DNA of 64,000 nt from Streptococcus oralis (lineage in GTDB: Bacteria; Bacillota; Bacilli; Lactobacillales; Streptococcaceae): assembly GCF_021497945.1 (NCBI RefSeq), contig NZ_CP046524.1:965501-1029500 (forward strand), in the 5' to 3' direction. The position numbers and the translations under genes are program-made. A model generated the notes under the pieces. The model saw only the letters and a program-made list of their open reading frames with translations, searched no databases and was not told the DNA's origin. Positions 15,348 through 49,422 of the stretch are shown here, in pieces; position 1 is the first letter of the stretch; each line of letters starts with the position of its first letter.

Positions 15348-16316
15348 ATGTCAACTTTAGATAGAAATCTCTTGCTAGAGATGTTCCGTAAGATGGAAGA
15401 AATCCGTCGAATGGACTTAAAAATTGCACAATTAGTAAAAAAAGGGAAAGTTCCTGGTATGACTCACTTTTCGGTTGGTGAGGAAGCAGCAAACGTTGGT
15501 GCTATGCTCGCTTTGAATGAAGATGACTTGATTACTTCCAACCACCGTGGACACGGGCAAGCTATCGCCAAAGGGATTGACCTCAATGGAATGATGGCAG
15601 AAATCCTTGGTAAGTACACTGGAACCTGTAAAGGAAAAGGTGGTTCCATGCATATTGCTGACCTTGATGCTGGTAACCTTGGAGCTAACGGTATCGTAGG
15701 TGGCGGTATGGGGATTGCTGTCGGTGCAGCCCTTAGCCAGCAAATGCAACATACTGGTAAAATCGTTGTTTGCTTCTTTGGAGATGGTGCGACCAACGAA
15801 GGTGTTTTCCACGAAGCAGTAAATATGGCTTCTATCTGGAACCTGCCAGTCATTTTCTACTGTATTAACAACGGTTATGGGATCTCTGCGGATATCAAGA
15901 AAATGACCAATGTAGAACATATTCATCACCGTAGTGCTGCATATGGAATCCCTGGAATGTTTATCGAAGATGGAAACAATGTGATTGACGTCTATGAGGG
16001 GTTTAAGAAAGCTGTGGACCATGTTCGCGGAGGAAATGGTCCAGTCTTGATCGAAAGTGTAACCTATCGCTGGCTTGGTCACTCATCATCTGACCCTGGT
16101 AAATATCGTACGCGTGAAGAAGTGGAATTGTGGAAACAAAAAGATCCAATCGAAAACCTTCGTAACTACCTTGTTGAAAATAACATTGCAAGTGCTCAAG
16201 AATTGGAAGAAATCCAAGCACAAGTCAAGGAAGCAGTAGAAGCCTCTGTTAAATTTGCAGAAGAAAGCCCATTCCCACCACTAGAATCCGCATTTGAAGA
16301 TATTTACGCAGACTAA
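15348..16316 (+). CDS. acoA: 2-oxoacid (pyruvate/acetoin) dehydrogenase E1 alpha subunit
   Basis: A 322-residue thiamine-diphosphate enzyme subunit. The ThDP/Mg motif starts GDGATNEGVFHEAVNMAS and continues to NNGYGIS; the phosphorylation-loop region TYRWLGHSSSDPGKYRT is typical of E1alpha. With E1beta it decarboxylates a 2-oxoacid and reductively acylates lipoyl groups. Streptococcal homologues are annotated both as pyruvate and acetoin dehydrogenases; no acetoin-specific neighbour is seen, so pyruvate is the more likely substrate. First gene of an operon of five. Confidence 0.93.
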   Translation: MSTLDRNLLLEMFRKMEEIRRMDLKIAQLVKKGKVPGMTHFSVGEEAANVGAMLALNEDDLITSNHRGHGQAIAKGIDLNGMMAEILGKYTGTCKGKGGSMHIADLDAGNLGANGIVGGGMGIAVGAALSQQMQHTGKIVVCFFGDGATNEGVFHEAVNMASIWNLPVIFYCINNGYGISADIKKMTNVEHIHHRSAAYGIPGMFIEDGNNVIDVYEGFKKAVDHVRGGNGPVLIESVTYRWLGHSSSDPGKYRTREEVELWKQKDPIENLRNYLVENNIASAQELEEIQAQVKEAVEASVKFAEESPFPPLESAFEDIYAD

Positions 16317-47103: not shown

Positions 47104-48582
47104 CTAGTTCTCCTTTCTATCAATAACGTTGATGTGATTGACTTCTGGATCTTCCGTCCCTTGGAGGGAGCAACCACGTTCTTTGGCAAATAGGATATAA
47201 TCCACAATTTCTCGTGTAATACGTTCACCTGGTGCTAGGATTGGAATCCCTGGAGGATAGCACATGACAAATTCCCCACAGACCTGTCCAACAGACTCAT
47301 CCAAGGTTAAACTTCTTCTCTCTGAATAGAAGGCTTCCTGAGGAGATAGCACTAACTCTGGTTGGATATATTCTCCAGCAATCAAGTCCTTTCCATCTCT
47401 TGAATAGAGTCTCTTAATATCAGCTAAAGCACCGACCAGACGCTCTATGTCTTGGATGCGGTCGCCGATGGAAATATAAGCCAAGATATTGCCAATATCC
47501 CCAAACTCAATCTGAATATCATATTCGTCTCGCAGGAGGTCATAAACTTCGATACCTGTTAAGCCAATACCCTGAGTGTAGACTGACAGCTTGGTCACGT
47601 CAAAATCACAGACCGACACACCGTCTATTAACTCTTTTGAGTAGGCATAGTAACCACCGATAGCATTGATTTCACGACGAGCATACTCGGATAGTTCAAT
47701 AACCTTCTCAAAAGACTCTTTACCACGAAGAGCTAGATTACGACGTGAAATATCAAGGCTTGCCATCAACAAGTAAGAGGCAGATGTAGACTGGGTCAGG
47801 TTAATGATCTGTCGAACATATTCAGGATTCATATGCTCCCCGATAAGCAGGATGGAGCTCTGGGTCAAACTCCCACCAGACTTATGCATAGAGACCGCCG
47901 CCATATCAGCGCCAGCGTCCATAGCAGATAGTGGCAATTTGTCTGTAAAATGCAAATGCGCTCCATGGGCTTCATCCACTAAAACCAGCATGCCAGCTTC
48001 ATGAGCCATTTCCGTTAAACTCTTGAGGTCTGAACAAATCCCATAGTAGGTAGGATTGTTGATTAGGATAGCTTTAGCATCCGGATGTTCCTTGATGGCC
48101 TGTGCAACACGGTCATTTTCAAGACCTAAAGCGATGCCAATTTTAGGATCTACACTCATCTCGATATAGATGGGAATGGCACCACATAGAACCAGCGCAT
48201 TGATAGCAGATTTGTGAACATTTCGCGGCAGAATAATCTTATCTCCAGCCTTGCAGGTGGAAAGAATCATAGTTTGAACAGATGATGTTGTTCCACCAAT
48301 CATGAGAAAGGCATGCGCTGCTCCAAAAGCATCCGCAGCCAGCTCCTCTGCATCTCGAATAATCGAAATGGGATGGCCTAGATTATCCAAGGGTTTCATA
48401 GAATTGACATCAATGCCAACACATTTTTCTCCCAACAATTCAACAAGTTCTGGATTTCCCCGTCCGCGTTTATGACCTGGTACATCAAAGGGAACAATCC
48501 TTTTCTTTCGTAACTTAATCAGACCTTCATAAATAGGGGCCTGGTTCTGATCTAACTTTATCAAGACATACTCCTTTACCAT
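47104..48582 (-). CDS. speA: Orn/Lys/Arg decarboxylase, probably arginine decarboxylase SpeA
   Basis: A 492-residue fold-I PLP decarboxylase. The PLP lysine is in SMHKSGGSLTQSS, preceded by LVDEAHGAHLHF; the C-terminal domain ends with GERITREIVDYILFAKERG. Adjacent aguA and aguB argue that it makes agmatine from arginine, though cad (lysine decarboxylase) is a common label. The frame extends to 48648, but those codons translate a terminator hairpin (48629-48654), so they are rejected. ATG at 48582 has a poor Shine-Dalgarno; an in-frame TTG at 48564 follows AAAGGAG ideally and is a real alternative. First gene of the polyamine operon. Confidence 0.92.
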   Translation of the reverse strand: MVKEYVLIKLDQNQAPIYEGLIKLRKKRIVPFDVPGHKRGRGNPELVELLGEKCVGIDVNSMKPLDNLGHPISIIRDAEELAADAFGAAHAFLMIGGTTSSVQTMILSTCKAGDKIILPRNVHKSAINALVLCGAIPIYIEMSVDPKIGIALGLENDRVAQAIKEHPDAKAILINNPTYYGICSDLKSLTEMAHEAGMLVLVDEAHGAHLHFTDKLPLSAMDAGADMAAVSMHKSGGSLTQSSILLIGEHMNPEYVRQIINLTQSTSASYLLMASLDISRRNLALRGKESFEKVIELSEYARREINAIGGYYAYSKELIDGVSVCDFDVTKLSVYTQGIGLTGIEVYDLLRDEYDIQIEFGDIGNILAYISIGDRIQDIERLVGALADIKRLYSRDGKDLIAGEYIQPELVLSPQEAFYSERRSLTLDESVGQVCGEFVMCYPPGIPILAPGERITREIVDYILFAKERGCSLQGTEDPEVNHINVIDRKEN

Positions 48583-48628
48583 ATTTTTAGCGCCTAAAAA
48601 AATGAAGGCGACCAAAGCTTGACTTATG

Positions 48629-48654
48629 AAAAAAGAGCAGGTTTTCACCTGCTC
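48629..48654 (-). terminator. Terminator/attenuator between the leader RNA and speA
   Basis: Perfect 8-bp GAGCAGGT/ACCTGCTC stem with 4-nt loop and six U on the minus strand, 47 nt before the speA ATG. It would end the leader RNA or attenuate the polyamine operon. Confidence 0.85.
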
Positions 48655-48962
48655 TGCAATCTTCTGACGTTTTTATTTTGGTTTCTGTTGAGTATGTCTG
48701 TTCCCGATGTTTCCTAACTCTCTAGTAGCAAATATTACGTACTTTATTGATCGTTTCACAAGATGACGTGTGCTTTCACCACACTAAAATTTATGAATTA
48801 GGACAAGCGTCCTAACATCAACTTATAAAAGTAGGCTTTTAACCCTATCAATAATGTGGCTTTTCAACCACGCTTCGGCATTCAACCCTGCCTGTCCGTA
48901 GGCATTTTTTACTCGGGTTTATATTTGCTAGAAAACATCATCTCATTTTCTAAGCCTTATAA
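48655..48962 (-). ncRNA. Structured leader or small RNA upstream of speA, about 330 nt with its terminator
   Basis: On the minus strand a promoter (TTTACA, 17 bp, TATAGT) is followed by a gene-free transcribed region ending in the terminator at 48629-48654. Clear stems in order: GCCU-ACGGAC-AGGC enclosed by AACCC...GGGUU; GUGGUU-GAAA-AGCCAC; UUAGGAC-GCUU-GUCCUAA; GUGUG-GUGAAAG-CACAC. A second GGGUU could compete for AACCC. Very short frames (MPTDRQG, MPKRG) overlap the first stems. It lacks the core sequences of tmRNA, RNase P RNA and T-boxes. Either an independent RNA or a cis-regulatory leader of the polyamine operon. Confidence 0.6.
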
Positions 48963-48967
48963 CTATA

Positions 48968-48996
48968 TCATGTTTACAAGAGCTTGTAAAGTACTT
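48968..48996 (-). promoter_or_regulatory. Promoter of the speA-upstream RNA
   Basis: Minus strand: -35 TTTACA, 17-bp spacer, -10 TATAGT, ending about 6 nt before the first structured segment. It drives the leader RNA and probably the whole polyamine operon when the terminator is read through. Confidence 0.65.
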
Positions 48997-49076
48997 TTTT
49001 AAAATTTTCTTAAATTTTGTTCGCGAATAGTTAAATTACCACCCAAAAGTTAAAGTTTAATCAACTGAAAATGATT

Positions 49077-49103
49077 ACAAAAGGAACTAATTTTTTAGTT
49101 CCT
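49077..49103 (-). terminator. Terminator after the 103-residue gene
   Basis: 9-bp stem AGGAACTAA/TTAGTTCCT with 4-nt loop; T-rich on the minus strand side. Confidence 0.8.
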
Positions 49104-49110
49104 CTCAAAA

Positions 49111-49422
49111 TTATTTAATCTTATGCTTATTCATTTTTTCTTGGAAAATATCTGTAATGATTTGGCGCAATTCTTCTCTTTCCTTCTCAGGAATCTCACC
49201 ACTTCTCTTGGCAACTGCGTAGAGCTCTGGATGTTCGATAGAAATACGCTTTATTGTCCGAGTTGTTGCGTGGTTTCTCACAAAAAATGGGATGCGTTTG
49301 ATCCATTCCTGAGGTACTAGGGCAAGGATTTTCGCAGCGGTTTCCTTATCGCTAATTTCAGATGTTGTCAATCCCTGCCTTATCATCTCCTGTTCTTTTT
49401 CTGTAAAATCTTTTAATTCCAT
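49111..49422 (-). CDS. Conserved hypothetical small protein
   Basis: A 103-residue, soluble, highly charged protein, not recognised. It looks all-helical (KDFTEKEQEMIRQGL, EEREELRQIITDIFQEKMNKHK) with a conserved-looking aromatic/basic centre QEWIKRIPFFVRNHATTRT. No cysteine pairs, no signal peptide. It has AGGAGAAGG before the ATG and its own terminator, so it is an independent unit between the speA leader RNA and the accessory region. Confidence 0.75.
   Translation of the reverse strand: MELKDFTEKEQEMIRQGLTTSEISDKETAAKILALVPQEWIKRIPFFVRNHATTRTIKRISIEHPELYAVAKRSGEIPEKEREELRQIITDIFQEKMNKHKIK

Follow-up and report, generated by a model that had tools for sequence, protein, structure and literature searches.

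A structured RNA before the arginine decarboxylase gene speA of Streptococcus, a probable orphan riboswitch and putative counterpart of the pneumococcal small RNA srf-13

A discrete RNA of 327–328 nt has been listed in pneumococcal surveys as srf-13, srn235, F59, SN20 or Spd_sr49, located before SP_0916 and on the same strand as this gene, the pneumococcal speA counterpart that encodes arginine decarboxylase (PMC7531197). In TIGR4, positions 869478–869804 are assigned to srn235/F59/Spd_sr49 (PMC12323649), and F59, mapped at 869510–869591 in the gap that separates SP0915 from SP0916 and with the orientation of SP0916 (PMC3395615), falls inside this interval; in D39V, positions 826260–826587 are assigned to srf-13, described as "ncRNA of unknown function" (PMC6212727). 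A lung fitness of 0.05 by Tn-seq was given for srn235 and SN20 (PMC3395615). The D39V authors regarded RNAs that precede genes with no extra start site as likely RNA switches, 27 of their 29 RNA switches being named through a database match, and srf-13 was placed in the small-RNA table, apart from these 29 (PMC6212727). In these listings the transcript stands as a small RNA, and neither a full-length fold nor a leader role is described there.

With regard to polyamines, earlier riboswitch claims have been judged unconvincing; the first class regarded as clear is the spermidine riboswitch, a rare variant of SAM-I and a terminator-based off-switch that lies before polyamine genes including ldcC of Trichococcus (PMC10853860). 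Other candidate control elements at polyamine-linked genes are the odc1 motif, described with a pseudoknot, and potE, a weak candidate (PMC8632094).

The RNA analyzed here, from a stretch of DNA of 64 kb (hereafter the window), shares the position, strand and length of the pneumococcal transcript. Its identification with srf-13 is a putative one that rests on position, strand, length and an Rfam fragment. In the open-licence literature the transcript was found and no leader or riboswitch proposal, and the main texts of PMC6296669, PMC10942264, PMC6212715 and PMC11701578 do not mention speA. The transcript and a 54-nt Rfam fragment were already known; the full-length fold, the linkage to speA and a second leader in other genera are new here.

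Layout, fold and covariation of the streptococcal RNA

On the minus strand of the window, the order is promoter, a 328-nt RNA ending in a terminator, and speA (Table 1). The earlier note, made from the sequence alone, had described an RNA of about 330 nt with its own promoter and with a terminator just before speA, and both the unit and its terminator stem were confirmed; the gap of 462 bp it gave upstream of speA is 546 nt instead, counted from the ORF end at 49111 to the probable TTG start at 48564. The ORFs that follow speA are presumably the remainder of the polyamine operon, which they resemble.

The promoter claimed in the earlier note, TTTACA-17-TATAGT, is present and matches the consensus at 10 of 12 positions, with TG preceding the -10 element. 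In a 1.1-kb stretch scanned on both strands, five terminator-like sites compare with 0.7 (sd 0.8) in shuffled sequence, and four promoter-like sites compare with 2.8 (sd 1.8), so that the promoter has no significance by count alone; its position is kept in relatives, the best promoter lying 25–45 nt before a common anchor in 67 of 71 distinct upstream regions, with the extended -10 in all 67. Downstream, the terminator is separated from the ribosome-binding site by 28–33 nt in the commonest S. suis-type loci and by more in three rows (by eye), and the speA strand of this gap holds no promoter-like site in the three loci scanned (the window, L033 and L031). A weak promoter-like site is present within the RNA. 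The hairpin that follows the terminator in mitis-type loci changes its paired bases between loci and was not seen in S. suis-type loci.

Table 1. Features of the speA leader region, in positions of the window
Feature	Position	Strand	Remark
Promoter, -35 TTTACA (48990–48985), -10 TATAGT (48967–48962), extended TG	48962..48990	-	kept in position, 67/71 distinct upstream regions
Whole structured RNA, 328 nt, putative counterpart of pneumococcal srf-13	48629..48956	-	length, strand and position as D39V srf-13 (826260–826587)
P0, weak 5' hairpin (UUAGAAAA paired to UUUUCUAG); its formation would preclude the P1 extension	48928..48953	-	3/38 rows at or below 0.05 against shuffles
P1, 5' strand GCAAAUAU	48921..48928	-	nearly invariant
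P1, 3' strand AUAUUUGC	48728..48735	-	nearly invariant
P1 extension, 3' strand UUAGGAAACAUC, pairs with 48939–48928	48706..48717	-	35/38 rows beat 95% of shuffles
P2 (AACCC/GGGUU) and inner hairpin P2a (48903–48890); part in Rfam RF02440	48884..48919	-	
Conserved joining segment GAAUGCCGAAGCG	48871..48883	-	
P3 hairpin	48857..48870	-	12 distinct stems among 73 sequences
P4 (48854–48847 with 48751–48744), encloses P4a, P5, P6 and P7	48744..48854	-	
P4a hairpin	48833..48846	-	both-side changes in two pairs
P5 (UUUUAUAAG..CUUGUGAAA), encloses P6 and P7	48754..48830	-	hardly varies
P6 hairpin	48798..48815	-	both-side changes in three pairs
P7 hairpin	48768..48784	-	hardly varies
AGAGUUAGG, candidate antiterminator strand, complement of the 3' arm of the terminator	48713..48721	-	suggestive only
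Intrinsic terminator AGAGCAGG..CCUGCUCU, then U run	48634..48655	-	kept in 18 aligned relatives, different in L045
Second hairpin, in mitis-type loci, after the terminator and before the ribosome-binding site of speA	48586..48616	-	variants among loci
speA ribosome-binding site AAAGGAG	48571..48577	-	
speA, arginine decarboxylase	47104..48564	-	Pfam PF01276

The 328-nt sequence folds at -88.4 kcal/mol (z -4.47), a value equalled by none of 100 shuffles, and the whole RNA is one multi-helix fold in which P2, P3, P4a and P6 covary across the streptococcal speA leaders. The four or more stem-loops proposed earlier are thereby backed by both-side changes in these helices, while P1, P4, P5 and P7 keep their pairing with little variation. 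For the P4–P7 domain, examined in an alignment of 34 of the 45 distinct sequences, 96.9% of the cells are paired, a share that never exceeds 49.1% in slid registers. Both-side changes number 26 cells, compared with 8.3 (sd 2.0) after shuffling, and the score is 0.094 against 0.068; none of 500 shuffles reached either value. Measures of pair count and pair type for this domain were reached by 26 and 46 of 500 shuffles, respectively. P2 occurs as seven stem types among 73 sequences and forms 4.71 of its 5 pairs against 3.45 (sd 0.41) when shuffled, 2 of 2000 shuffles being as good, with P2 and P3 read in the best-pairing register and the P2 5' strand chosen for pairing, which favours the native state. 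The automatic full-length consensus has both-side changes in just 2 of 59 pairs because P2 and P3 are broken up in that alignment. Two loci carry insertions, well over 100 nt long, exactly within a loop, namely the P3 loop of L043 and the P4a loop of L045. Separately, P2 of the S. suis type (e.g. L033) carries an inserted hairpin, and 24-nt matches to this insert recur elsewhere in several such genomes, in the manner of a small dispersed repeat.

The competing AACCC/GGGUU pairings put forward in the earlier note correspond to P2 against the P4a loop. As P4a reads UGAG/CUCA or CGAG/CUCG in several lineages, this competition is not conserved, and the switch built on it was ruled out. An antiterminator through the early arm of the terminator with CAUCUUGUGAAACG was likewise rejected, this duplex being the best in 13 of 20 sequences and not in seven (L031, L033, L035, L041, L045, L081 and L094); in folded truncated transcripts it formed in L044, L081 and L095 only. 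The late arm with AGAGUAGG is kept as a suggestive candidate: AGAGU(U)AGG paired to the 3' arm of the terminator, the late arm, outperforms 95% of shuffles in only 13 of 38 rows; two of its pairs are missing in L094, and in no row is it as strong as the terminator. A switch between P0 and the P1 extension is weak on the P0 side (Table 1). No antiterminator valid in every lineage was found among the streptococcal pairings tested, nor was a consistent one shared by the sequences of the second leader described below.

Linkage to speA and a second leader in other genera

Of 284 Streptococcus genomes, 120 carry the RNA (123 gave a match, of which G010, G016 and G048 were set aside as short chance matches), and 117 have a close speA with at least 82% identity (119 speA genomes less G026 and G244, at 62–63% identity). 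All 117 genomes with a close speA carry the RNA, and the other 164 of the 284 gave no RNA match at the sensitivity of the search used. A first sample had given matches in 85 of 197 genomes, including short chance matches in G044 and G091. In 48 of 50 loci the RNA lies directly upstream of speA on the same strand; as to the two exceptions, L039 ends at a contig end and in L042 speA stands just beyond the flank (seen as L087). The nearest upstream ORFs of 93 loci, some genomes being counted repeatedly, fall into 18 groups, and at least eight upstream genes are plainly different once insertion-sequence genes, one masked and one antisense ORF and the genes of one mitis-group cluster are set aside. 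Pfam assigned VIT1, NusG, RNase HII, an oxidoreductase and a MarR regulator among these ORFs, the others being compared by eye. It can therefore be deduced that the RNA and speA change address together.

Three genomes hold the RNA with no close speA: G015, where the contig stops, and also G110 and G150. The latter two (L081 and L082) lack the speA operon, and their terminator is followed directly by an element with an IS200-like transposase (PF01797); the RNA looks intact in both, and the nearly identical junction that they share at the operon loss indicates that the loss may be recent. Beyond these samples, the streptococcal form was confined to one genus in both a pattern search (31 of 395 genomes, 80 genera) and a model search (16 of 295 genomes, 74 genera), and 24 of 26 exact-pattern loci in named genomes were streptococcal, the remaining L121 and L132 being without the RNA. 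An origin from phages or plasmids was rejected: the streptococcal leader gave no match in phages, its pattern was absent from viral contigs, and the second leader gave no match in plasmids or phages.

This second leader, highly conserved and covarying, precedes a more distant speA in 12 genomes of seven genera and four families, comprising two streptococcal genomes (G026 and G244) and 10 genomes of other genera. It lies on the speA strand in all 12 (17 loci), its core ending 157–966 nt before speA. Across nine sequences, 99.2% of the cells in 56 consensus pairs are paired and eight pairs changed on both sides compare with 2.7 (sd 1.3), reached by none of 500 shuffles; for pair types, 69 of 500 shuffles did as well. 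Nine of the 12 genomes came from inspection of the region that precedes speA, so that the link to speA is partly by selection. Searches that started from the RNA found the leader in 3 of 4, 1 of 1, 2 of 4 and 7 of 42 genomes and added G520, G481 and G473, where it stands before speA too. Among nine non-streptococcal genomes whose speA has at least 59% identity, seven carry this leader, and it was not seen in the available speA flank of G272 and G341.

In helix order and motifs (P3, P4a, and UUUUAUAA with CUUGUGAAA then ACG) the second leader resembles the streptococcal RNA. One of its models (R2) matched the window RNA in register as the best place in 20 kb (16.0 bits, E 0.038); the RNA ranked second in the whole 64-kb window (E 0.45), and across 12 streptococcal loci (E 0.034) it was second to an unrelated place (E 0.028). 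The reverse search with model R3 put the right place third (E 0.56), and model R1 gave nothing convincing there. Common descent of the two leaders is considered probable, with a marginal statistical link.

Further observations at these loci concern L147 (G227), where nearly 1 kb of repeated hairpin-rich units lies between the second-type leader and speA, and the plus strand of the window, where positions 15352–15451 match a second-leader model (18.9 bits, E 0.081) more strongly than the RNA itself does.

Proposed mechanism and rival explanations

Taken as a whole, the observations are best explained, and with somewhat better than even confidence, by a cis leader of the speA operon that would sense a metabolite and, as a riboswitch or attenuator, switch transcription off. 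The parts of this reading differ in strength. That the RNA is a cis-acting 5' leader of speA is likely, its occurrence in all 117 close-speA genomes behind at least eight different upstream genes being most simply understood in this way; that it senses a metabolite directly is putative, with chances about evenly balanced. RNA polymerase would start at the leader's own promoter, and the leader would fold into a closed multi-branch domain from P1 to P7, after which the terminator at its end would stop transcription and yield the 328-nt RNA listed as srf-13, while read-through would presumably give the speA mRNA. The conserved domain would most likely respond to a pathway product, either a polyamine or one of its close precursors, and plentiful product would favour termination, a direction suggested by the pathway and by analogy with the spermidine switch. 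Given the short gap, promoter-free in the three loci scanned, and the kept promoter of the RNA, speA is most simply transcribed by read-through, with the discrete RNA as the terminated leader; it may instead start from a promoter overlapping the terminator, or from the weak site inside the RNA. The earlier note's suggestion of a riboswitch-like or attenuator-like leader thus survives as a structured leader tied to an arginine decarboxylase gene, without the alternative pairing it named.

The principal rival is a trans-acting small RNA whose gene merely happens to stand before speA, the terminator being constitutive and the A-rich 3' part or the loops pairing with mRNAs elsewhere or binding a protein. 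The earlier note had called this equally possible; it is now disfavoured and considered unlikely, as the RNA accompanies all 117 close speA genes behind differing upstream genes and 164 of 284 genomes gave no match at the search sensitivity used. It would accord with the discrete pneumococcal RNA and with the lung fitness of srn235 and SN20; however, deletion of speA is itself reported as attenuating (PMC7531197), and insertions in the RNA could also lower speA, so that this fitness value does not separate trans from cis. The intact-looking RNA of G110 and G150, which have no speA, would likewise suit a trans function, but the junction shared by the two allows a recent operon loss, and these genomes alone cannot tell the two apart. 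A protein-dependent attenuator, in which the conserved domain binds a regulatory protein in place of a metabolite, draws on the large fold with its many invariant positions and otherwise on the same support as the metabolite reading; no common regulator gene adjoins the module, whose upstream genes differ, and we regard it as rather improbable.

A plain 5' untranslated region whose terminator leaks without regulation would account for the strong terminator and for its hardly changing sequence, yet it leaves unexplained the covarying P2, P3, P4a and P6, the junctions invariant across the genus and the second conserved leader in other genera, and is therefore very improbable. Attenuation through a leader peptide encoded by a short ORF is hardly credible: AUG codons do occur in the leader, for instance before CCGAAGCG, but this one is absent in L045 and the later reading frames vary by lineage (by eye), and the reading was disfavoured because the start codon is not conserved. 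Hence the cis leader of speA is retained and taken as a probable orphan riboswitch that would respond to a metabolite of the polyamine pathway, with srf-13 as its terminated product. A wider proposal, that the streptococcal type and the second type, from other genera of the order, are subtypes of one ancient leader class, a new non-SAM riboswitch for polyamine, agmatine or arginine that would control speA in at least seven genera and leave srf-13, with its lung fitness effect, as terminated product, is tentative and somewhat doubtful.

Comparison with known RNA families and riboswitches

No Rfam family reached its gathering score in the whole 64-kb window. In a permissive search RF02440 (SpF59_sRNA; ldcC RNA) matched P2/P2a at 28.5 bits, below its curated 37.2; among 11 relatives scanned, five reach 37.2 bits (L095, L038, L031, L033 and L044), three stay below (L041, L045 and L042) and three gave no match up to E 0.1. 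This family is 54 nt only and covers the P2/P2a fragment of the longer RNA analyzed here. RNase P RNA, 6S RNA, T-box and the lysine riboswitch were absent at gathering score from the 64 kb and up to E 10 from the region, RF00162 (SAM-I) had no match up to E 10 in 48560–49130, and ARAGORN found no tmRNA or tRNA gene in the window, in agreement with the earlier failure to match the RNA to tmRNA, RNase P RNA, T-box or the lysine riboswitch. In 13 loci scanned in connection with the second leader, no Rfam family matched up to E 0.1 except RF00162 in L169 and L170. Neither the full-length RNA nor the second leader has an Rfam family of its own.

Typically, cobalamin, lysine and T-box leaders combine a promoter, a large multi-helix domain and a terminator before a biosynthetic operon. 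The streptococcal RNA shares this architecture, while differing in that it has no Rfam match at gathering score or, regionally, up to E 10. What generally marks a riboswitch, a conserved structured domain in a 5' leader, is found here in position and structure only. Like the odc1 motif and potE, with which it is compared by description alone, the RNA is a candidate control element at a polyamine-linked gene (PMC8632094). The RF00162 matches in L169 and L170, from two (G252 and G451) of the four genomes of another genus, score exactly the threshold value and precede a decarboxylase gene of 41% identity, a position like that of the spermidine off-switch, and may possibly be the spermidine variant (PMC10853860). 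The spermidine riboswitch also lies before polyamine genes, but its fold differs from that of the streptococcal RNA (PMC10853860). If the proposed reading is true, the pneumococcal small RNA srf-13 would become the leader of a virulence-linked pathway gene, and arginine decarboxylase genes would offer, in a second leader unrelated to the spermidine class, a direct, testable case of a polyamine riboswitch.
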